Assembly (NCBI RefSeq): GCF_001570605.1
Contig: NZ_BBXG01000022.1
Span: 62,001-126,000, forward strand
Direction of reading: 5' to 3'
DNA: 64,000 nt
From: Herbidospora cretacea
GTDB lineage: Bacteria > Actinomycetota > Actinomycetes > Streptosporangiales > Streptosporangiaceae
Shown: positions 21,930 through 32,124 of the stretch, piece after piece
How positions within the stretch are numbered: position 1 is the stretch's first letter
Layout: every line of letters begins with the position of its first letter
Made by a program: the position numbers and the translations under genes
The notes under the pieces: generated by a model
The model's input: only the letters and a program-made list of their open reading frames with translations
What the model was told of the DNA's origin: nothing
Databases searched by the model: none

Positions 21930-23030
21930 ATGGCCCCAAGCATTCGAATCGTGACCAGACTCGTGACCACTCCCGCGCTGGCGGCCCTCCTGGCCCTCGC
22001 GGCATGTTCGTCCCAGGGCGGCGAGACCAAGGCCCTGCCGCCGGTCAACGTCAAGGGCGCCAGCCTCCAGGCGGGCTTCGGCACCATGGACCGGCTGGTC
22101 GAGGCCGCCCAGAAGGAGGGCAGGCTGACGGTCGTCGGCATGCCCCGCGAATGGGTCAACCACGGCGAGCTGATGGACGTCTTCACCGACAAGTACGGCG
22201 TCCAGATCGAGTCGCTCAATCCGGCGGCCAACAGCCAGCAGCAGATCGACGCCGCCGCCTCGGCCGCCAAGCCCGACGTCTTCGACCTCAGCGTCGACGT
22301 GGCCCTCGCCAACGCCGCCAAGTTCGCCCCCTACCAGGTGACCGGCTGGACCGACATCCCCGACGAGGTCAAGGCCGCCAACGGCGCCTGGTACGCCGGG
22401 TACGGCGGCTACATGTCGATCGGCTACGACCCGCGCAGGATGAAGGCGCCGGTGTCGTACACGGAACTCCTCGCGCCGACGGCCCGCCCGGCGGGCACGA
22501 CGGTCGCGCTCGCGGGCGACCCGCTGAAGAACGCGAGCGGCTTCAACGGCGTGATGGCGGCCTCCATGCAGGGCGACCGGTTCGACGCCAAGAGGGGCGT
22601 GAAGACCTTCGCGGCCCTGAAGAAGGCCGGGGCCCTGGCCGCCGCGCCCGAGCAGGCCGCCGCGGTGATCGACTGGGACTACCTGAACGCGGCCCGGTCG
22701 GCCGCCAACGCGGCCAACTGGCAGGTGACGATCCCGGCGGGCTCGGTCCTGGCCTCGCCCTACGTCCACGCCATCAGCGCGAGCGCGCCCCACCCGGCCG
22801 CCGCCCGCCTGTGGACCGAGTTCGTGTTCTCGGACGAGGGCCAGAACATCCTGCTCAGGGGCTACGCGCGGCCCTCGCGGATGGAGGCCATGCAGATGCG
22901 CGCCACCCTCGACAACGAGGCGGCCGGGAAGCTGCCCAAGGTCAACGGGAGCCCGGTCTTCCTGACCATCCCGCAGCAGGACGCCGCCAAGACGTATCTC
23001 CAGCAACACTGGTCTCAGCAAATGAGCTGA
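21930..23030 (+). CDS. lipoprotein solute-binding protein (ABC-type, no permease nearby)
   Basis: 366 residues from ATG 21930. A lipoprotein signal peptide, RLVTTPALAALLALAAC with the lipidated C26, is followed by a periplasmic-binding-protein fold of the family 1/iron-thiamine type (LTVVGMPREWVNHGELMDVF, DVFDLSVDVALANAAKF). Late motifs match spermidine/Fe3+ binders (AARLWTEFVFSDEGQNILL, GYARPSR). No ABC permease or ATPase gene is in the window, so its partner is elsewhere or it acts as a sensor. Ligand unknown. It is spaced only 26 bases from the SH3-like gene and 85 from the methyltransferase, so these may form one unit. Confidence 0.85.
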   Translation: MAPSIRIVTRLVTTPALAALLALAACSSQGGETKALPPVNVKGASLQAGFGTMDRLVEAAQKEGRLTVVGMPREWVNHGELMDVFTDKYGVQIESLNPAANSQQQIDAAASAAKPDVFDLSVDVALANAAKFAPYQVTGWTDIPDEVKAANGAWYAGYGGYMSIGYDPRRMKAPVSYTELLAPTARPAGTTVALAGDPLKNASGFNGVMAASMQGDRFDAKRGVKTFAALKKAGALAAAPEQAAAVIDWDYLNAARSAANAANWQVTIPAGSVLASPYVHAISASAPHPAAARLWTEFVFSDEGQNILLRGYARPSRMEAMQMRATLDNEAAGKLPKVNGSPVFLTIPQQDAAKTYLQQHWSQQMS

Positions 23031-23115
23031 AAAACACTGATTCCACGGCTGGCGTACAGTGATGCCGGACAACCGTGGAAGTGAGCCCATCTTGCGATAT
23101 GACACACCTCCGCTC

Positions 23116-23868
23116 ATGAGGTGGAACGCTCGCGCCTACGACAGCTCGTTCGGCTACGTCTCGGCGCAGGGCGCTCCCCTCGTGGAGCTGCTCGACCCGC
23201 AGCCGGGTGAGCGCGTGCTCGACCTCGGCTGCGGCACCGGCGTGCTGAGCGGTGAGATCGCCCTGCGCGGGGCGTACGTCCTGGGGATCGACGGGTCCCA
23301 CGCGATGATCGAGACGGCCATCGCCCAGTTCCCCGGGCTCGACTTCACGGTGGGCGACGGCCACGACTTCGGCGTCGCCCAGCCGTTCGACGCGGTGTTC
23401 TCCAACGCCGCCCTCCACTGGATGCACCGCGACCCCGACGCGGTCATCGACAACGTCCGCAACGCGCTGCGGCCGGGCGGCCGGTTCGTGGCCGAGCTCG
23501 GCGGGGCCGGCAACTGCGCCGCCCTGACCTCCGCCATGCTGACCGCCTGGCGTGAACACGGTCTTCGCGAGCCCGAACTGCCCTGGTATTTCCCCAGCCC
23601 GGCGGAGTACGCCGTCCGGTTGGAACGCGCCGGTTTCACGCTGCGCATCCTGGAGCACTTCGACCGGCCGACCCCCCTCGACGAGTGCCCCAACGGCGCC
23701 GCCGACTGGGTGAGGATGTTCGCCGCCTCGCTGCTCGACGGGCTCTCCCCCGCGACGGTCGACTCGCTGCTCCGGCGGGTCAACGAACTCGCCGCCCCCG
23801 CCCTGCGCCACGACTCCGGCTGGATGGCCGACTACGTGAGACTCCGTTTCGCAGCGGTGCGCCACTGA
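23116..23868 (+). CDS. class I SAM-dependent methyltransferase
   Basis: 250 residues from ATG 23116 (MRWNARAYDSSFGYVSAQG), the usual beginning of trans-aconitate-methyltransferase-like proteins. GTG 23059 and ATG 23062 in the same frame would add 18-19 residues, and no ribosome site decides between them. Motif I is VLDLGCGTGVLSGEI (about residues 35-49), followed by the acidic GIDGSHAMI, the motif PFDAVFSNAALHWM and LRPGGRFVAELGG. The C-terminal half binds the acceptor, which is unknown. The family includes enzymes for small carboxylic acids. It ends 105 bases before the sigma-like cassette, with no clear terminator between. Confidence 0.8.
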   Translation: MRWNARAYDSSFGYVSAQGAPLVELLDPQPGERVLDLGCGTGVLSGEIALRGAYVLGIDGSHAMIETAIAQFPGLDFTVGDGHDFGVAQPFDAVFSNAALHWMHRDPDAVIDNVRNALRPGGRFVAELGGAGNCAALTSAMLTAWREHGLREPELPWYFPSPAEYAVRLERAGFTLRILEHFDRPTPLDECPNGAADWVRMFAASLLDGLSPATVDSLLRRVNELAAPALRHDSGWMADYVRLRFAAVRH

Positions 23869-23932
23869 AGGGTGACACCATCGTTTGTGGCTGTTCGTCA
23901 CGGATGAAACTCCCGCCACGGCAGGGGATTTG

Positions 23933-23948
23933 CCAGACTATGGTCTGG
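23933..23948. promoter_or_regulatory. inverted repeat before the sigma-like/helicase cassette, possible operator
   Basis: CCAGAC-TATG-GTCTGG is a perfect 6-bp inverted repeat with a 4-base spacer, 25 bases before the first gene's ATG at 23974. The spacer contains TATG and could overlap a -10 box. Position and symmetry suggest a repressor site controlling the three-gene cassette. Confidence 0.5.
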
Positions 23949-23973
23949 TCTTACGGAAGTGATGGGGATAGCG

Positions 23974-25788
23974 ATGAACTTCTGCCTGAGTGACCTCGTG
24001 CCACCGCTGCGCTGGAGTGACGCTGCCGCCATCCTGGCCGGTCGGGCCGGACTGCCCGACGCCTGGTGGCGGTCCCTGCCGATGAGCCGGGTGCTGGCGG
24101 CCTTGGGTCCCGACGCGCTCGCCGAACTCCTCACCGACCTGACGCTCGACCACTGGCCCGCGGCGTCCGTGGGCGACGTGCTGCCCGCCCTTCACGTGCT
24201 CGACGCCGACGACGCCGACGACCCCCAGGTGGGGATCGCGCTCGACCGGGCCGGATCGTGGGCGGGGCTGCTGGCGCTGACCGGGCGGGAGCTGACCGAG
24301 CAGCCGTTCGTGAAGGCCCGGCCGCTGATCACCGCGCTCTACGCGGCCGTGCTGACCAAGCTCGCCGGGGGCGAGACGCCGGCGAAGCCGTCCTTCCCCG
24401 CCGAGGTCGCCGCCAAGATCCCCGTCGCGGTCCCCGCCGAAGAGCCCTATGAGACCAAGGCCGCGCTGAAGACGCCCTTCGTGCCCAAGGTCGAGACGAA
24501 GGCGCGGCTGAACGGCAGCGCGCGGGCGCCTTTCGAACCCAAGGCGGCGCCCGAGAGGCCCGTGGCCGAGGACGCCGCCGCCGACGGGCCGGCCACCTCC
24601 CCGCCCGCCGTGTCATCCGCCGTGTCATCCGCCGTGTCATCCGCTGTGTCATCCGCCGTGCCGCAGCCGCGTGAGGACGACGACCTCGACCTGCCCGACG
24701 TGATCGACCGGGTGTTCGCCTCGCTCGACGACCAGAGCTGGATGGTCGCGCAGAACCGGGTCTTCACCGACTCGCCGACCTCTCCCGAGTCCCTCTCCAA
24801 GCTGCTCGGCGTGCCCGCCGCCCAGGTCGAGGCGACCGAGCACGCCCTGCGCTCGCGCCTGCGGGAATGGGTCGCCTCGCCGGTGGCCGCCCGCTACCGC
24901 GCCTACCTGCTCAACCTGACCGACCTGCTGGGCGTGGCCGCGCCCAAGTCGCGCCTGGTGAACGCCGCCGAGTGGCACACCCGGGAGCTGCCCTCCCTCG
25001 ACGTGCTGGCGTGGCAGTTCGTGCTGGCCACGCTGCCCGGCTATCAGGTCTCGGGCGACTGGATCGTCCAGGGCGACCTGGCCGAGCTGCACGAACGGAC
25101 CCGCGCCCTGATCGTGAACGCCGACCGCCCGCCGACCGTGTCGCGGGCCCTCGAACTCGTCTCCACGCTCGGCATCCACCCCGAGGTCGCCAAGGAGTGG
25201 CTGGAGAACGTGCCGCAGCTGCGGATACAGAGTCCGAACGGCGCGGCCCCACCACCTGCTCCGGCCCCCCCGTCCTTCGGGCCCGCCGACGTCTCCCAGA
25301 CGCAGCGCTGCTTCCGCCAGCCCGACGGGCGCTGGTGGCTGCGGGTCGACGTCGACGGGGGCCACCTGGCCGGGACCGCCGTCGCGCTGCCCGAGGGCTT
25401 CGCCCTTTATCTGGGGTTGTCGCCAGGTGGCGAAAGAACGGTGCGCAGCGCCGCCGGAGACGTCACGATGACCTGGCGGGAGTCTCCCGCCATAGACTCA
25501 CTCGGCCGCATCCTCACCGAGGTCGCGGCCAAGGAGGGCAGCCACATCTTTCTCACCCTCTCCGACGAGGGCATGCTCAGGGTCCGCCATCTCCCCGCCG
25601 CCACCACCGGCGACACGATCGCGCGGGCGCTGCGCCTGGTCGGTTACACGGCCCCCGGCGGAACCTCTGACCAGGCCGACCGGGTGATCGCGACCCGGAT
25701 CGGCCTCACCGGGCCGACCACGCCCGACGAGCTGCGCGCCCACCTCCGAGAACGTGGGGACAGAGACCTGCTGTCCCTGCTGGGATAG
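23974..25788 (+). CDS. sigma-region-4-like protein A (paralogue of the gene at 27899)
   Basis: 604 residues from ATG 23974, chosen to match the paralogue's start (LSDLVPPLRW against LSDIVPPLRW) and because GGGGAT precedes it. The N-terminal domain (about 1-130) is helical. Residues about 130-235 are an Ala/Pro/Lys-rich linker containing four SSAV units encoded by a 12-bp tandem repeat. About 236-430 is the sigma-region-4-like helical core, here without a clear recognition helix (LSKLLGVPAAQVEATEHAL). The C-terminal domain (about 435-604) contains RCFRQPDGRWWLRVDV, HIFLTLSDEGMLRVRHLP and LRERGDRDLL, all shared with protein B. It lacks the two winged-helix-like units of protein B. It probably acts with the helicase 7 bases downstream. 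Biochemistry unknown. Confidence 0.75.
   Translation: MNFCLSDLVPPLRWSDAAAILAGRAGLPDAWWRSLPMSRVLAALGPDALAELLTDLTLDHWPAASVGDVLPALHVLDADDADDPQVGIALDRAGSWAGLLALTGRELTEQPFVKARPLITALYAAVLTKLAGGETPAKPSFPAEVAAKIPVAVPAEEPYETKAALKTPFVPKVETKARLNGSARAPFEPKAAPERPVAEDAAADGPATSPPAVSSAVSSAVSSAVSSAVPQPREDDDLDLPDVIDRVFASLDDQSWMVAQNRVFTDSPTSPESLSKLLGVPAAQVEATEHALRSRLREWVASPVAARYRAYLLNLTDLLGVAAPKSRLVNAAEWHTRELPSLDVLAWQFVLATLPGYQVSGDWIVQGDLAELHERTRALIVNADRPPTVSRALELVSTLGIHPEVAKEWLENVPQLRIQSPNGAAPPPAPAPPSFGPADVSQTQRCFRQPDGRWWLRVDVDGGHLAGTAVALPEGFALYLGLSPGGERTVRSAAGDVTMTWRESPAIDSLGRILTEVAAKEGSHIFLTLSDEGMLRVRHLPAATTGDTIARALRLVGYTAPGGTSDQADRVIATRIGLTGPTTPDELRAHLRERGDRDLLSLLG
24610..24657 (+). repeat. 12-bp tandem repeat inside sigma-like gene A
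   Basis: Four direct copies of GTGTCATCCGCC, the third with a single C-to-T change (GCT). Each encodes Val-Ser-Ser-Ala, so the repeat extends a flexible linker in frame. Near-identical copies suggest recent slippage, and copy number may differ between strains. Confidence 0.9.
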
Positions 25789-25795
25789 GCCCCCC

Positions 25796-27850
25796 ATGCC
25801 CCGCCTCGCCGTCTCCCTGGACTTCACGCAGGACCTCGCCGCACTGGCCCGGCCGGTGCGACGGGACGCCGTGGTCTCCGTCAGGCGGTTCCTGCACAAC
25901 TCGCCCGCCGGGCCGGTGCCCGAGCGCGTGCGCAACGCGCGCGACCCCCGGGTGACGACGTTACGCCTGGCCGACCGGCACCGCGCGGTGGCCGTGCGCC
26001 AGCGGGACGTCTACTGGCTGGTCACCGTCCTGCCCGACGCCGAGGCGTACACCTACGCCCAGCGGCACCGCTTCACCGTGAACTCCGCCATCGGCGTGAT
26101 CGAGGTCTGGGACGCCGAGGCGCTGGCCCGCGTCGAGCCCGCGCTCCGCCGGTCGGCCGCCGGGTCGGCTAAGCGCCTCTACGGCCACATCTGCGAGACC
26201 GACCTCATCGACATCGGCATCGACCAGGAACTCCTGCTCCCGATGGTCCGGATGATGGCCACCGACGCCCACCTGGCCGCCGTGGAACCGCTGCTGCCGG
26301 AGAGCCAGTACGCCCCCCTCGCCGTCCTGGCCCGCGGCGGGTCGCTGACCGACGCCTGGCGCGAGCTCGACGGCTGCCGGGTGACCTCGGTCGAGAACGT
26401 CGACGTCGACGACCTGGAAGGGGCGCTCCAGCGCTCCCCCGGCAAGGCCGCCTTCGCCGCCGACCGGGTCGAGCTCGACCGGGTGCTGACCAAGCCCCAC
26501 TGGTGCACGTTCCTCTATCCGCCGCAGCACACCTACGCCAACTGGCCGGTCTACGACCGCCCGGTCCTGGTCACCGGCGGCGCGGGCACCGGCAAGACGG
26601 TGATCTCCCTCCACCGGGCCGCCTTCCTGGCCAAGGAGAACACCGGGCCGATCCTGCTGACCACCTTCTCCCAGGTGCTGGCCAACGAGCTGTCGGCCAA
26701 GCTCGACCTGATCATCGACGACGAGATCGTGCGCAAGCGGGTCGAGGTCACCAACGTCGACCGGCTGGCCCACCGCATCGTCTCGGCCCACGAGGGCAAG
26801 GCCCCCACGCTGGTCGGCGACGTGACGAACCTGTGGGCCGAGGCGGCCGGCAGCCGCTTCGGCGCGGCGTTCCTGCTGCGCGAGTGGGAGCAGGTGATCC
26901 TCTCCCAGAACCTGCGGACGCTGGAGGAGTACCTGTCGGCCGAACGCCCCGGCCGGGGCGCGGAGCTGTCCCGGGAGATCCGCACCAACGTGTGGCGGGC
27001 GGTGGAACACGTCGAGGGCCGCCTGCGGGAGCAGGGCCGCCGGACCCTCCTCCAGCTCGCCTCGGAAGGCGCGGAGTTACTGGGACGCACGACCGACGTG
27101 CTCGAGAGCGACGCGCCGGGGCGGGAGCCGTACAAACACGTGGTGATCGACGAGGCGCAGGACCTGCACCCGGCGCAGTGGCGGCTGCTGAGGGCGGCGG
27201 TGCCGCCCGGCCCCAACGACATGTTCATCGTGGGCGACCCCCACCAGCGCATGTTCGACACCCGCGCGGCCCTGGCGGGCATGGGCATCCCGGTCCGCCG
27301 GTTCCACCTCAAGATCTCCTACCGGCTGCCGCACGAGATCCTCTCCTTCGGCGTCCGGCTGCGCGGCGGCGGCCCGGTCGACGGCCTGGTCGAGGGCGCG
27401 GCGGAGATGTACGGCTACCGCTCCACCGTCCACGGCCCGCGCCCGCTGGTGCGCGAGTACGTCTCCCAGGACGCCGAGATCAGCGGCCTGGTCGCCCACG
27501 TGAGCGACTGGCTGGCCGACGGCGTGGCCCCCGAGGAGATCGCGGTCTCGGCCCGCACGGTGGAGATCGTGCGGATGGCCAGAGCCGCCCTGCGTGACGC
27601 GGGCATCGAGGTGAAAGTCACGATGCTGCACGGCATGAAGGGGCTGGAGTTCCGGCGGGTGGCCGTGATAGGTGTCGCAGAGGGGATCATCCCGGCGCCC
27701 GACGCGCTCACTCCCGCCACCGAGGATCCGACGGCCCGAGCGCACGACCTGCAGCGAGAACGGGGGTTGCTCTATGTCGCGTGCACACGGGCGAACGAGC
27801 TGCTCTACGTGTCCTACTCGGGTCGGGCCAGTCCCTTCCTTCCCGCCTGA
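25796..27850 (+). CDS. UvrD/Rep-like helicase with N-terminal RelE/ParE-like domain
   Basis: 684 residues from ATG 25796. Residues 1-105 read like a RelE/ParE toxin fold (DFTQDLAALARPVRRDAV, RVTTLRLADRHRAVAVRQ, YWLVTVLPDAEAYTYAQRH). About 110-235 is an all-helical linker. The SF1 helicase core follows: Walker A GGAGTGKT (about 261-268), motif II VVIDEAQDLHPAQ (about 448-460), motif III FIVGDPHQRMF, motif IV SYRLPHEIL, motif V MLHGMKGLEF (about 609-618) and motif VI LLYVACTRANELL. All ATPase motifs are intact. It is too small for the full UvrD 1B/2B insertions. No RecB-type nuclease domain is seen. Flanked by two sigma-like paralogues on the same strand, it is the centre of a probable three-gene system acting on DNA or transcription complexes. 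Confidence 0.88.
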   Translation: MPRLAVSLDFTQDLAALARPVRRDAVVSVRRFLHNSPAGPVPERVRNARDPRVTTLRLADRHRAVAVRQRDVYWLVTVLPDAEAYTYAQRHRFTVNSAIGVIEVWDAEALARVEPALRRSAAGSAKRLYGHICETDLIDIGIDQELLLPMVRMMATDAHLAAVEPLLPESQYAPLAVLARGGSLTDAWRELDGCRVTSVENVDVDDLEGALQRSPGKAAFAADRVELDRVLTKPHWCTFLYPPQHTYANWPVYDRPVLVTGGAGTGKTVISLHRAAFLAKENTGPILLTTFSQVLANELSAKLDLIIDDEIVRKRVEVTNVDRLAHRIVSAHEGKAPTLVGDVTNLWAEAAGSRFGAAFLLREWEQVILSQNLRTLEEYLSAERPGRGAELSREIRTNVWRAVEHVEGRLREQGRRTLLQLASEGAELLGRTTDVLESDAPGREPYKHVVIDEAQDLHPAQWRLLRAAVPPGPNDMFIVGDPHQRMFDTRAALAGMGIPVRRFHLKISYRLPHEILSFGVRLRGGGPVDGLVEGAAEMYGYRSTVHGPRPLVREYVSQDAEISGLVAHVSDWLADGVAPEEIAVSARTVEIVRMARAALRDAGIEVKVTMLHGMKGLEFRRVAVIGVAEGIIPAPDALTPATEDPTARAHDLQRERGLLYVACTRANELLYVSYSGRASPFLPA

Positions 27851-27898
27851 TCCCCTAATCTGAACTGCGGATAAATTCCCCTTGCCGGTTGGACCTGC

Positions 27899-29728
27899 AT
27901 GAATTTGAGCCTGAGCGACATCGTGCCCCCCCTGCGCTGGACCGCGCCCAGCCAGGTGGAGCCGATCGCCAGCGATCCCGGCCTCCCGAACTCGTGGTGG
28001 CAGGCGCTCCCGATCGACCGCGCCTGCGCCACGGTCGGGCCGGCCCAGATCGCGGCCAAACTGGCCGATCTCACGTCCGCCTGCTGGGGTCACCTGATCC
28101 TCGGCGACATCATGCCGCTGCTGCGGTTCACCGCTCCGGCCGAGAGCCAGCGCACGCCGGGGAGCCGCGACAGCGTCCGCCTGCTGTTCGCCGGGGTGCT
28201 CGACCGGCTCATGGACACCGAGCCGCTCAACCCGCTGGCCAGCGTTCCCCCGGCCGTCCCCGAACGGCCCCTCCCGGAGATCATCGACGAGCTGTTCCAG
28301 CGGCTCGACGACCGCCAGCGCGCCATCGCCCGCGACCGGCTCTACGCCGAGCACCGCGCCACCCTCGACGAACTGGCGCAGCGGTTCTCCGTCACCCGCG
28401 AGCGCATCCGGCAGATCGAGCGCGACCTGCGCGACCACGTCGACAACTGGCTGCGCGGCCAGGAGGCCACCCCGCTCACCGCCCACCTGACCTGGCTGCG
28501 CACCCGGCTGGGCTCGGCCGTCCCGGCCGACGACCTGGCCGCCGCGGTGCCCTGGCACCGCACCGAACTGGGCACGCTCGGCATCCCGGCCTGGCGTTTC
28601 GTCCGCACGTTACTGACCGGCTACGACCAGGTCGACGGATGGCTCGTGGCCGGGGGCGCCGACGAGCTGCGGGAGAAGACGCGGCAGCTGTTCACCGACG
28701 GGCCCGTGCCGCTGGCCGAGGCGGTCGGCATGGTGGCGCAACTGGGCGTCCGTGAGGACGTCGGGGAGCGCTGGCTCGGGGCGGTGCCCCAGCTGCGGCT
28801 GCTCGAAGGCCATGTCGTGCCGTGGCCGAGGAGCGTCAACGACAAGGCCGAGGCGGTGCTGGCGGTGGCGGGCACGCCGCTGACGCCCGAGGAGATCCAG
28901 ACCCGGATCGGCGAGGACTACAGCCTCGTCGGCATCCGCAACCAGCTCACCGCCGACGAGCGGTTCCTCCGGCTCGACCGGAACAAATACGGCCTGGCCC
29001 GCTGGGGCGGCGAGGAGTACCTGGGCATCCGCGAGATGATCGCCCGCGAGATCGTGAAGGCCGGGGGCGAGGCGTCGGTCAACACGATCGTGGCCTCCCT
29101 CACCTCCCGCTACGAGGTGAGCGAGAGTTCCGTTCGCGCCTACGCGGGCGGCCCGGGTTTCGAGCGCACCCAGCGCGGCTGGATCCGCGTCGCGGGTGCC
29201 GAACCGGCCGACTACCAGCCGCGCCGCGACGTGTCGATGACCCGCCGCTGCTTCCGCAGCCGCGACGGCCGCTGGTGGCACCGGGTCGACGTGAACCCCG
29301 AGCACCTGCGCGGCTCGGGCTCCCCGCTGCCGACCGGGTTCGCGGCCCATCTCGGCATGGCGCCCGGCGGCCAGCTCACCGCGTCGACCCCGCAGGGGGA
29401 GGTGGTGATCTCGTGGCACAACCAGCCGACGATGGGCTCGATCCGCCCGATCCTGGCCGAGTACAACGCAGGGGAGGGCGACCACGTCTTCCTGACCGTC
29501 TCCGACGGCGGCGAGCTGCTCACCCGGTTCCTGCCGCAGGGCGCGGCCGGGCTGCCGCCGCTCAACAAGGCGCTCCACCTGATCGGCTACACCGCGCCGG
29601 TCGCCTCCGAGGCCGAGGGCCTGCGGCTGATCGGGGCCCGCATCGGGCTGCCCGACGGCGCGGGCAAGGACGATGTGCTCGGAAGGCTGAGAGAACGTGG
29701 AGATCGCGACATTCTTCTCTATCTGTAA
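27899..29728 (+). CDS. sigma-region-4-like protein B with winged-helix-like units
   Basis: 609 residues. Residues about 1-115 match protein A's N-terminus (LSDIVPPLRWTAPSQ). About 120-190 contain a near-perfect sigma-70 region 4 helix-turn-helix (LDELAQRFSVTRERIRQIER), used by primary sigma factors to bind -35 boxes. About 190-305 is a helical part shared with protein A. About 310-430 hold two winged-helix-like units (VAGTPLTPEEIQTRIGEDYS; GGEASVNTIVASLTSRYEV, each followed by R-x-x-GW/YG). The C-terminal domain (about 440-609) is shared with protein A. Region 2 of sigma factors is absent, so it is not a complete sigma factor. It starts 48 bases after the helicase and is probably the DNA-binding part of the cassette. 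Confidence 0.78.
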   Translation: MNLSLSDIVPPLRWTAPSQVEPIASDPGLPNSWWQALPIDRACATVGPAQIAAKLADLTSACWGHLILGDIMPLLRFTAPAESQRTPGSRDSVRLLFAGVLDRLMDTEPLNPLASVPPAVPERPLPEIIDELFQRLDDRQRAIARDRLYAEHRATLDELAQRFSVTRERIRQIERDLRDHVDNWLRGQEATPLTAHLTWLRTRLGSAVPADDLAAAVPWHRTELGTLGIPAWRFVRTLLTGYDQVDGWLVAGGADELREKTRQLFTDGPVPLAEAVGMVAQLGVREDVGERWLGAVPQLRLLEGHVVPWPRSVNDKAEAVLAVAGTPLTPEEIQTRIGEDYSLVGIRNQLTADERFLRLDRNKYGLARWGGEEYLGIREMIAREIVKAGGEASVNTIVASLTSRYEVSESSVRAYAGGPGFERTQRGWIRVAGAEPADYQPRRDVSMTRRCFRSRDGRWWHRVDVNPEHLRGSGSPLPTGFAAHLGMAPGGQLTASTPQGEVVISWHNQPTMGSIRPILAEYNAGEGDHVFLTVSDGGELLTRFLPQGAAGLPPLNKALHLIGYTAPVASEAEGLRLIGARIGLPDGAGKDDVLGRLRERGDRDILLYL

Positions 29729-29775
29729 AGAAGGTTTGTGGGACGATCGTTCCTCCGCACGGGGAAGGATCATGA

Positions 29776-30738
29776 ATGTACGCCGCTTTGTTACTGGTCG
29801 CGACGACGACCGTGATGGGGGCCGACGTCAGCAACTGGACCGGTGACGTCGACTGGACCGACGTGAAGGGCAAGGGCGCGGAATTCGTGTTCGTGCACGC
29901 CACGGAGGGTCCCAACTACAAGAGCCCGAGATTCGGCACGCAGTTCGCGGGGGCCCAGACCGAGGGCCTCTACCGGGGGGCCTACCACTTCGCCCAGCCA
30001 CACGAGTCGGGCGGCCGGGAGCAGGCCGACTTCTTCGTCCGCAACGGGGGCAACTGGACCGCCGACGGACGGACGCTGCCCGGGGTGCTGGACGTCGAGG
30101 ACAACCCCTACAACAACCGCAACGGCCTCAACAGCTGCTACGGCCTCGACCAGGCCGAGATGGTCACCTGGATCGGCGACTGGCTGTCCCGCTACAAGGC
30201 GTGGACCAAGCGCGACGCGATCATCTACACCACCACCTCCTGGTGGAAGACCTGCACCGGCGACACGAAGAAGTTCGCCAAGAACCCGCTCTGGATCGCC
30301 CGCTGGGGCAGCGACCCGGGCGAGCTGCCGGCCGCGTGGAAGAACTGGACGTTCTGGCAGAAGGACGAGAAGGCCGGCCACGCCGGCGGTTCCGACGCGT
30401 TCAACGGCTCGCTGTCGCAGCTCCACGCGTTGGCCGACCCGCCGGTCCGCATCCTGATCTCGGGGGGCGCCAAGAGCCGGTCGCAGTACGTCCTGAAGAT
30501 CTCCAACACCGGCGCGAAGCTCGCCACGAAGATCGACATCTCGGGCAAGACCTTCGGCAACAACCGCCTCACCTACGCGCCGAGGGCCTGCAAGCGGACC
30601 GCCACCACGGTCAAGTGCACGATCAACAGCCTGGCCCCCGGCAAGAGCGCCACCTTCAAGTTCTCCACCAGGCCCAGGGGCACCAAGCCGGTCGGGATCA
30701 ACTTCCTGGTCGGCCGGACCAAGGTCACCCTCAAGTAA
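29776..30738 (+). CDS. GH25-family lysozyme (muramidase)
   Basis: 320 residues from ATG 29776, with AAGGA at 29765-29769 placed correctly for it. Residues about 1-16 (MYAALLLVATTTVMGA) serve as a short signal peptide lacking the usual positive N-terminus. The GH25 barrel spans about 16-205, with the conserved start GADVSNWTGDVDW, the acidic pair LDVEDN (catalytic Asp/Glu) and WIARWGSDPG. The enzyme cuts beta-1,4 bonds between MurNAc and GlcNAc. The C-terminal ~105 residues are beta-sandwich-like (VLKISNTGAKLATKIDISG), a possible wall-binding or structural domain with two Cys. It lies 47 bases after the sigma-like cassette on the same strand; a functional link is uncertain. Confidence 0.85.
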   Translation: MYAALLLVATTTVMGADVSNWTGDVDWTDVKGKGAEFVFVHATEGPNYKSPRFGTQFAGAQTEGLYRGAYHFAQPHESGGREQADFFVRNGGNWTADGRTLPGVLDVEDNPYNNRNGLNSCYGLDQAEMVTWIGDWLSRYKAWTKRDAIIYTTTSWWKTCTGDTKKFAKNPLWIARWGSDPGELPAAWKNWTFWQKDEKAGHAGGSDAFNGSLSQLHALADPPVRILISGGAKSRSQYVLKISNTGAKLATKIDISGKTFGNNRLTYAPRACKRTATTVKCTINSLAPGKSATFKFSTRPRGTKPVGINFLVGRTKVTLK

Positions 30739-30748
30739 CCTCGGAAGC

Positions 30749-31447
30749 ATGCTGCGGCTCTATGACACCCGTCACCGGCTCGTAGAGCCGCTCCTTCCGT
30801 CCGGCTCGCGCTCGCTGCGCCTGTACGTCAACCAGCCCGACCTGCGCGCCTCCCTGCTGGCCGACCTGGTCCGCCGGGTGCTGGAACGGTCGAGCGTCCG
30901 GGTCGCCGCCCAGCAGAGCCCCGTCGACGACGAGGCGTCGCTGCGCGCCGACACCCTGGCCCTCGGCATCCGGCCGGTCGACCACCAGCCGCTCCCGTCC
31001 CGCCCGATCGACCTGCTGATCGGCCCGGCCGCCGAGGTCACCGCGGCCCGCTGGGCCGTGGGCGAGCCGCTCCTGTTCGACCGCCCGCTCGGCGACGTGG
31101 CCGCGGCGGGCCTGGACCCCCTGTCGGTACGGCTCGCGCTGATGGAGCGCCACTACCGCGACCCGCTGACCCTCACCTGGGACACCCTCCGCGAGGCCGA
31201 CCAGACCATCCGCGGCTGGCGCGGCGAGGTGGCGGCCTGGGCCGAGTCCCTCAGCGCCCCCATCGCCACGCCCTACTCCGCCGCCCTGACCGAGGCCTTC
31301 GAAGACGACCTCGACACCCCGAAGGCCCTGAAGGTCCTCCGCGACCTGGCCGAAGACCCCGACGTGCCCCCGGGCGCCAAGTTCGAGACCGCCATGCACG
31401 CCGACCACATCCTGGCCCTCGACCTGGCCATCGAGATCGGCAGATAG
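30749..31447 (+). CDS. cysteinyl-tRNA-synthetase-like protein without catalytic motifs
   Basis: 232 residues. The start, MLRLYDTRHRLVEPL followed by SLRLYVNQPD, mirrors the beginning of CysRS/MshC proteins (LRLYDT...V..YVCGPTVYD). The C-terminal third (EAFEDDLDTPKALKVLRDLA) mirrors the CysRS helical FNTP.AL region. The HIGH and KMSKS nucleotide-binding motifs and the zinc Cys/His ligands are all missing, and the length is half of CysRS, so aminoacylation is not possible. The middle may be a collapsed Rossmann remnant. It may be a regulatory or binding subunit, or simply a decaying paralogue, yet codon use and frame are intact. Genes for mycothiol synthesis (mshB) lie 2 kb away. Confidence 0.7.
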   Translation: MLRLYDTRHRLVEPLLPSGSRSLRLYVNQPDLRASLLADLVRRVLERSSVRVAAQQSPVDDEASLRADTLALGIRPVDHQPLPSRPIDLLIGPAAEVTAARWAVGEPLLFDRPLGDVAAAGLDPLSVRLALMERHYRDPLTLTWDTLREADQTIRGWRGEVAAWAESLSAPIATPYSAALTEAFEDDLDTPKALKVLRDLAEDPDVPPGAKFETAMHADHILALDLAIEIGR

Positions 31448-31448
31448 C

Positions 31449-31466
31449 TGCTAGCGGATTGCTAGC
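31449..31466. promoter_or_regulatory. TGCTAGC direct repeats, probable VapBC operator
   Basis: TGCTAGC occurs twice, starting 11 bases apart (31449-31455, 31460-31466), i.e. one helical turn. Each contains the palindrome GCTAGC. The pair lies 8 bases before the antitoxin ATG. Tandem palindromes of this kind are typical binding sites for ribbon-helix-helix antitoxins that repress their own operon. Confidence 0.6.
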
Positions 31467-31474
31467 ATGATTCC

Positions 31475-31741
31475 ATGTCGGGAGTCATCTACATCCGGGA
31501 CGTCGACGACGACGTCATCGAGAAACTGAAGCAACTGGCGGCCGAGGCGCACATGTCGTTGTCCGCCTACGCGGCCCAGCAACTCGCGATCGTGGCCCGG
31601 CGGCCCAGCAACACCGATGTGATGCGGAAGGCCGGGGAACTCGCCGCCGCCCGGCGCGCGCGGGGAGAGGTCTCCCCCACGACCGAAGAGATCGTGGCGG
31701 CCGTCCGCGCCGACCGTGACCGGCACGAGGGGCCCGCGTGA
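31475..31741 (+). CDS. vapB: ribbon-helix-helix antitoxin (FitA/VapB type)
   Basis: 88 residues. The N-terminus (VIYIRDVDDDVIEKLKQLA, then HMSLSAYAAQQL) is a ribbon-helix-helix DNA-binding unit of the FitA class. The C-terminal half is charged (ARRARGEVSPTTEEIVAAV) and should wrap around the toxin. It overlaps the following PIN toxin gene by 4 bases (GTGA), the standard antitoxin-first arrangement. Two TGCTAGC palindromes in the promoter are the likely operator. Starts at ATG 31475; an ATG at 31467 is out of frame. Confidence 0.9.
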   Translation: MSGVIYIRDVDDDVIEKLKQLAAEAHMSLSAYAAQQLAIVARRPSNTDVMRKAGELAAARRARGEVSPTTEEIVAAVRADRDRHEGPA

Positions 31742-32124
31742 TCGTCGACTCATCGGCGCTGGTCGAGGCGTTCGTCTCGACCGACCCGGACGGTGATCTG
31801 CTCAAGGCGCTGTCGGGAGAGCTGTACGCGCCCCATCTGCTCGAACTCGAGTTCTGCTCGGTCCTGCGGGGGCTCGTGCTCGGCGGCAAGCTCGACGAGA
31901 CGCGGGCCGAGGCGGCTCGGCGGCTCTACGCCGAGACGTGGATCCAGCTCCAGCCGGTGACCGGCCTGATGGACCGGATATGGGAGCTCCGGCACAACTT
32001 CACCCCCTATGACGCCGCCTACATCGTGCTGGCCGAGGCGCTGGATCTGCCTCTGGTCACCTGCGACGCCAAGCTCGCCCAGAAGGGCGGCAACCACGGC
32101 GCCCAGGTGCTGCTGTTCAGTTGA
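31738..32124 (+). CDS. vapC: PIN-domain ribonuclease toxin (VapC)
   Basis: 128 residues from GTG 31738. The PIN acidic residues are visible: D4 in MIVDSSALVEAF, the glutamate in LLELEFCSVLRG, and the aspartates in TPYDAAYIVLAEAL and LVTCDAKLA. VapC toxins cut specific RNAs, often initiator tRNA or 23S rRNA, when freed from VapB. All catalytic residues seem present, so it should be active. Coupled to the antitoxin by a GTGA overlap. The tail overlaps the convergent membrane-protein gene by 8 bases. Confidence 0.92.
   Translation: MIVDSSALVEAFVSTDPDGDLLKALSGELYAPHLLELEFCSVLRGLVLGGKLDETRAEAARRLYAETWIQLQPVTGLMDRIWELRHNFTPYDAAYIVLAEALDLPLVTCDAKLAQKGGNHGAQVLLFS

Follow-up and report, generated by a model that had tools for sequence, protein, structure and literature searches.

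A three-gene chromosomal cassette of Streptosporangiaceae drawn from two protein families that recur in anti-phage loci

What lies between positions 23974 and 29728 of the Herbidospora cretacea DNA analysed here, a stretch of 64,000 nucleotides (NZ_BBXG01000022.1, positions 62,001–126,000, forward strand) that we call the window? Three genes follow one another on a single strand: protein A, a UvrD-type helicase of superfamily 1 (SF1) and protein B. Together they form a chromosomal module of Streptosporangiaceae genera, made from two families that otherwise recur in anti-phage loci. A first-pass annotation of this DNA had placed three open reading frames here, and a check of the reading frames bore this out. 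Its gaps of 7 bases between A and the helicase and 48 bases between the helicase and B also stand. The single transcript that it deduced from this spacing does not follow, for the spacer before B contains conserved blocks. The features to which we refer below are as follows.

23974..25788, + strand: protein A, 604 amino acids, a class II paralogue
25796..27850, + strand: UvrD-type SF1 helicase, 684 amino acids, a relative of ArmD of ARMADA II
27899..29728, + strand: protein B, 609 amino acids, a class I member
25796..26155, + strand: N-terminal RelE-like domain of the helicase, the family histidine replaced by aspartate
28271..28456, + strand: sigma-70 region-4 domain of B, residues 125–186
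28826..29008, + strand: third winged helix of B, residues 310–370, HARE/RNA polymerase delta-like
29228..29533, + strand: beta-rich C-terminal domain of B, residues 444–545, with a predicted local distance difference test score (pLDDT) of about 90 in the model
23929..23947, + strand: conserved block upstream of A (TTTGCC-A/G-GACTATGGTCTG), a candidate operator or promoter
27860..27895, + strand: conserved blocks in the helicase–B spacer (CTGAACTGCGG...GCCGGTTGGACC)

That A and B are paralogues, as first proposed, is confirmed by three BLASTP segments, with E values of 1e-43 at the C-terminus, 7e-29 in the core and 3e-16 at the N-terminus. B likewise has the predicted region 4 (Pfam Sigma70_r4 at residues 133–176, E 1.1e-8) and no region-2 family at E up to 1; since Pfam and NCBIfam match region 4 without region 2, we rejected B as a sigma factor. 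The recognition helix of this region is identical in 23 of 23 genomes. A had been taken for a second sigma-region-4 protein, and its sequence does not bear this out as a working one: Pfam finds no region 4 in A, its NCBIfam ECF match is sub-threshold (E 0.075), and the stretch corresponding to the recognition helix is degenerate in 23 of 23 A proteins. The model of B predicts the sigma-4 helix, four winged helices and a beta domain. To judge from its sequence, A would consist of an N-terminal domain, a decayed sigma-4 helix, one winged-helix-like segment, low-complexity linkers and a C-terminal domain; it thus appears to have kept both end domains and to lack the middle winged helices of B. 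A 12-base tandem repeat of 4.7 copies (24605–24660) falls within a low-complexity linker of A.

To what are the other domains of B related? The third winged helix matches the fold of RNA polymerase delta, tied with unrelated winged helices, and the HARE-HTH Pfam score of B is 19.6 bits against a cut-off of 25.9. A chain of 6zca, the Bacillus subtilis polymerase–HelD complex, is among the fold matches of B; this chain is probably delta. The beta-rich C-terminal domain has no convincing relative among PDB profiles (best E 1.1). A resemblance to a B3 or AbrB-type barrel is tentative at most: the PDB profile matches are at chance level and the fold matches barely cover the region. Pfam recognises no nuclease domain in A, the helicase or B, and no phage record matches B at E up to 1e-5. 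Nor is A a recent copy of B made within the cassette: the paralogue tree groups A with the standalone paralogues C and D (99/98); B attaches to the A–C–D group at 94/91, a node that is not starred. The window's genome has a third family member, of class II, by itself outside the cassette (L049:11453-13204, G000:C3; loci carry L numbers and genomes G numbers throughout).

The helicase keeps SF1 motifs I, Ia, II, III, IV, V and VI, as the first-pass annotation had said, with small motif variants in some orthologues, and its UvrD domains are found. Of the label RelE–UvrD that it was given, the second half therefore stands. The first half is weak by our own searches and leans on the published description of ArmD (PMC12458937, available in part). 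ParE-type Pfam matches reach E 0.08–0.19 in a few of 17 sequences, where an unrelated match scored 0.043; the window helicase itself has neither a ParE-type Pfam match nor a PDB profile match to RelE. It aligns at 30.8% over residues 2–682 with a gene of an Escherichia coli plasmid, the fourth and last in an ARMADA II-like series of helicase, methyltransferase, 2114-residue helicase and ATP-dependent helicase. In the accessible text of PMC12458937, ArmD has a RelE-like N-terminus, its Walker A lysine is required for defence, the Walker A mutant gives no protection and the Walker B mutant shows a partial loss. The Walker A motif is kept in the cassette helicase.

In a tree of 38 sequences the cassette helicases form one clade (100/100, stem 0.79). 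This tree omitted five of the 23 cassette helicases, near-identical and from the same genus, and, among the 20 chosen loci of relatives, L145 and L162, where the gene is partial or uncalled. What sets the clade apart is a residue of the N-terminal domain: all 20 relatives have the family histidine, whereas the 18 cassette helicases have aspartate (15) or glutamate (3) in its place. The cassette helicases of L056, L089 and L177, from Nonomuraea and one other genus, are shorter (606–610 residues), with some 70–85 residues fewer after residue 341.

How widely, and in what company, is the cassette kept? Our sample comprised 150 genomes of the order, and the counts of genomes that follow are among the matches listed. 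A full-length B orthologue of at least 76% identity occurs in 65 genomes from 16 genera. All three genes are present in 64 of the 65, the helicase match being partial in one, and they run in the order A–helicase–B on one strand in 63. The test of order accepted a helicase–B gap of up to 2000 bases and used match positions joined from three search lists. The gap is 51–74 bases in 46 of the 63 genomes and 845–860 in the other 17, whose listed helicase match stops near residue 341 and so lengthens the gap. G027 has A, helicase and B, with a helicase match that begins only at residue 201, so that the gene may be damaged; G124 has B without A, next to a helicase remnant spanning residues 584–684. 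The remaining 85 genomes have more distant B matches or none, and the loci fetched from them contain no helicase of cassette type at E 1e-5.

The site is constant too, in the loci compared. The same flanking genes surround the cassette in L050–L054, L056 and L089, and in L055 (from G124) B stands alone at the same syntenic site. Across seven genomes of the genus (21 pairs), the ratio of nonsynonymous to synonymous substitution rates (dN/dS) comes to 0.030 in B, 0.097 in the helicase and 0.233 in A. Of the neighbours, the upstream methyltransferase gives 0.100, the gene of the solute-binding protein 0.303 and the one at 30749 gives 0.613. Mean between-genus identity falls from 0.820 for the methyltransferase through 0.795 for B and 0.675 for the helicase to 0.561 for A, and over 23 loci the length of B varies between 608 and 625 residues, that of A between 517 and 1580. 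The cassette is under strong purifying selection, and B is very strongly constrained. We infer that it has been inherited vertically within a set of genera of Streptosporangiaceae, and a 77% match in Nonomuraea gerenzanensis points to this family. Outside the window, genes were called by codon usage, with a caller that missed genes in L063, L076, L080, L081, L090 and L162.

The wider relatives of the helicase keep different company. Homologues at 38–47% identity are common in the same bacterial family, and from the high-scoring matches we chose by hand 20 non-cassette helicase loci; ten defence queries were derived from seven of these same loci. A defence-type neighbour is present in 18 of the 20, or in 17 when the genes of each locus are not used as queries on itself; L155 has a self-derived match only, and L148 and L157 have none. 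The neighbours include DrmB, a DrmA-like helicase, a kinase–FtsK protein of PD-T4-6 type, GmrSD, PLD, SNF2 and an N6-methylase. The same queries match none of 22 cassette loci, the SNF2, N6-methylase and DEAD-MZB queries from related loci included, and one of 17 standalone A/B-type loci, weakly. Do homologues of the helicase usually occur without A and B, the finding on which the idea of a system was to fall? The answer divides: neither A nor B lies beside any of the 20 chosen relatives, and the cassette's own orthologue stands with B in 64 of 65 genomes. In L155, L156, L163 and L164 a RelE–UvrD-type helicase adjoins a DrmA-like helicase, DrmB, a second UvrD gene and a kinase–FtsK protein. This arrangement is a recurrent defence-type locus in this bacterial family.

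Relatives of B are found in a second kind of defence locus, the Pbe operon of CxC ABC-ATPase/DndE systems. In L062 and L081 PADLOC assigns the next genes to PbeA (839 and 817 bits) and PbeC (886 and 602 bits), and L062 has DndC, DndD and DndE upstream. A B-like gene opens Pbe operons in L062, L063, L080, L081 and the plasmid L090, directly before pbeA. In a named genome collection the order B-like gene, PbeA, PbeC, 157-residue-type protein recurs in 13 of 20 loci (L125–L134, L136–L138), from Geodermatophilus, Mycolicibacter, Tessaracoccus, Mycobacterium, Amycolatopsis, Nocardioides, Saccharothrix, Actinophytocola and Arthrobacter. The B-like query, A7, was made from L062, L064, L065 and L066, so the sample favours Pbe-type loci. 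Elsewhere, dnd genes follow downstream in L135, a GmrSD-type gene is present in L140, and L141 and L142 have a small gene in common; near the B-like genes of L139, L143 and L144 none of the queried genes is present. L140 and L142 are probably re-finds of L064 and L066, and L134 and L135 share one contig. An unnamed sigma-4/winged-helix family thus heads actinobacterial Pbe operons. Its gene is not mentioned in the portions available of PMC6459918 and PMC10853773. Because this family stands at the head of Pbe operons, the choice of target by those systems becomes directly testable.

The first proteins of Pbe operons are 33–36% identical to B and share with it the sigma-4 helix, the winged-helix middle and the C-terminal domain. 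They differ from it in the alpha-CTD of L062, in their partners (PbeA, PbeC and a 157-residue protein in the position of PbeD) and in often lying near dnd genes. Among ten relatives or neighbours of B, Sigma70_r4 is above the Pfam cut-off in seven, just below it in one and missing in two; alpha-CTD passes the cut-off in L062 and falls short of it in L064 and L091. At L068:7132-9264 a fusion of an RNase_T-type exonuclease, BRCT and sigma region 4 adjoins a B-like fragment.

Is the cassette itself one of the known systems? Its helicase shares with ArmD of ARMADA type II full-length homology (measured against the gene that takes the place of ArmD on the E. coli plasmid), an N-terminal extension of RelE-like kind, the UvrD core and the Walker A motif. 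It differs in the lost histidine of the N-terminal domain and in its fixed chromosomal site, and the flanking genes, by which we judged in place of ArmA–C queries, include no ArmA-, ArmB- or ArmC-like gene. With these partners missing, membership of ARMADA type II was rejected. Pbe was rejected as well, the PbeA and PbeC queries missing all 22 cassette loci. Phosphorothioation genes are described as frequent in Pbe and not universal (PMC6459918, available in part); DndC (E up to 1e-40) occurs in 6 of 65 cassette genomes, the window's genome not being one of them, and the phosphorothioate link was dropped. With GajB of Gabija the helicase has the UvrD-type SF1 core in common (PADLOC, 89.2 bits) and differs in its extra N-terminal domain; its neighbours are A, which has no PADLOC match, and B, which has a weak match to MzaA, rather than GajA, and Gabija too was rejected. 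The MzaA match covers B residues 119–174 with 36.7 bits against a cut-off of 800; the region-4 helix alone is common to the two, and the MZA system was discarded. HelD with RNA polymerase delta resembles the cassette in having an SF1 motor and a winged helix, the one in B being tentatively HARE-like; membership of the HelD family was rejected for the helicase (49.7 bits against 419). Literature searches for the A–B gene pair turned up no description of the cassette in the parts of the texts available.

What might control the cassette? The block upstream of A is kept in 7 of 7 aligned sequences, with one inserted base in L054; eight were tried, and L053 was dropped as its start codon was not located. 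Searched in five genomes at up to 3 mismatches, this block is found upstream of A in four and at four other sites, each with 3 mismatches; a reversed-pattern control gave three matches. Before B, the blocks TGAACTGCGG and GCCGGTTGGA are kept across genera and varied in a few (52 sequences, 46 genomes), and the distance between them changes in one genus. For this alignment 4 of 56 sequences were dropped, their start codon not being located, and 6 of the 52 are second copies of one genome. With up to 3 mismatches allowed, the spacer block has a single match in the genome. We rejected a regulon of the two blocks across the genome, for there is no further strong copy in the genomes searched, and a scan of 23000–31500 found no sigma-70-type promoter. 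Conservation of the spacer blocks across genera suggests that B may have its own control; that B regulates itself through them is a guess.

What, then, does the cassette do? We favour housekeeping over active immunity. Our leading, still tentative, explanation, to which we give a little under even chances, is a domesticated housekeeping module directed at DNA or at the polymerase. It takes together the fixed order and site, the defence-type contexts of the two families in the loci examined, purifying selection, and the loss of the histidine and of the recognition helix of A. In such a module the sigma-region-4 helix and the winged helices of B would serve to dock it on DNA, either at promoter-like sites or at RNA polymerase. 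A, its end domains kept and its DNA-reading middle lost, would be an adaptor or brake that pairs with B or with the helicase. The helicase would translocate from the bound site and strip stalled polymerase, R-loops or foreign transcription complexes, and the RelE-like domain would now be structural or regulatory. Defence-type machinery would in this way have been domesticated into genome housekeeping. The first-pass division of labour, B reading DNA, A modulating and the helicase as motor, would fit the intact helix of B beside the decayed one of A, the winged helices missing from A and the intact motifs. If this is true, the cassette would offer a clear example of anti-phage machinery that has become fixed in a core role, the parts kept and the parts discarded being legible in sequence.

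Several considerations weigh against this explanation. Conservation and synteny are compatible with an active immune role. Loss of the histidine is no proof of lost activity, and the RelE fold of the domain is itself putative. The delta match of B is shared with unrelated winged helices, as noted above. That A, the helicase and B interact is suggested by linkage alone, and since family members also stand by themselves, at 17 standalone loci in the sample, B need not work with the helicase. The direction, from defence to housekeeping, is likewise presumed; the trees are rooted at the midpoint for drawing only.

Could the cassette instead be an active innate anti-phage system, fixed in the chromosome, in which B recognises invading DNA or its modification state, an ArmD-like motor attacks and A restrains? 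We consider this unlikely, though it has the best standing of the alternatives. The first-pass idea of defence survives in that relatives of both halves, helicase and B, recur in defence-type loci, and the helicase motifs are intact. All four ARMADA II genes, ArmD included, are reported essential for protection, and HARE-HTH is proposed to discriminate modified DNA (PMC12458937 and PMC10853773, each available in part). There is, against this, no recognised nuclease domain in the three proteins; the RelE-like domain has lost its histidine, the defence queries find nothing at the 22 cassette loci and dndC occurs in few of the genomes. Defence genes are usually patchy, unlike the cassette with its fixed synteny, its near-constant presence and the low dN/dS of B. 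A mobile defence island, in particular, does not accord with a syntenic cassette whose B is constrained and which lacks defence neighbours.

A recycling or conflict factor of RNA polymerase, of the kind formed by HelD and delta, would have B dock by region 4 and the delta-like winged helix while the SF1 motor clears the polymerase. This overlaps with the housekeeping explanation, and as a separate account we think it rather improbable. In its favour B combines sigma region 4 with a delta-like fold, the 6zca chain is among its matches, its recognition helix is invariant, and the distant relative L062 carries an alpha-CTD above the Pfam cut-off. HelD and delta are implicated jointly in recycling in B. 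subtilis (PMC7749165, available in part). We would speculate, at similarly long odds, that the B family consists of polymerase-mimic readers (sigma region 4, delta-like winged helix, sometimes alpha-CTD) that direct helicases and nucleases to transcription complexes: their part in Pbe-type systems would be to mark invaders, and in Streptosporangiaceae, with the toxin-like domain altered and the reading head of one paralogue lost, they would form an essential or near-essential module of transcription surveillance. Least probable of all is a pair of DNA-binding regulators, A and B, set beside a helicase by historical accident and mainly controlling their own locus: the conserved blocks without strong copies elsewhere and the persistence of B in G124 without A and most of the helicase agree with it, but 64 of 65 genomes keep the three genes together and the helicase is under purifying selection.

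Beyond A and B the flanking genes in the window are a 250-residue methyltransferase and a family-25 glycosyl hydrolase. The latter (29776–30738) separates B from the next conserved gene in the window and L050; it was not observed in the remaining six cassette neighbourhoods compared. The gene at 30749–31447, which evolves fast (dN/dS 0.61), follows the cassette in most genera examined; it has no Pfam family at E 0.01, and the start of its product resembles a cysteinyl-ligase. The gene names dapC, fdxA and mshB are presumptive, apart from the ferredoxin domain, which was observed. At 31475–32124 there is a pair of small genes, the first a FitA-like antitoxin, which is probably a toxin–antitoxin locus.

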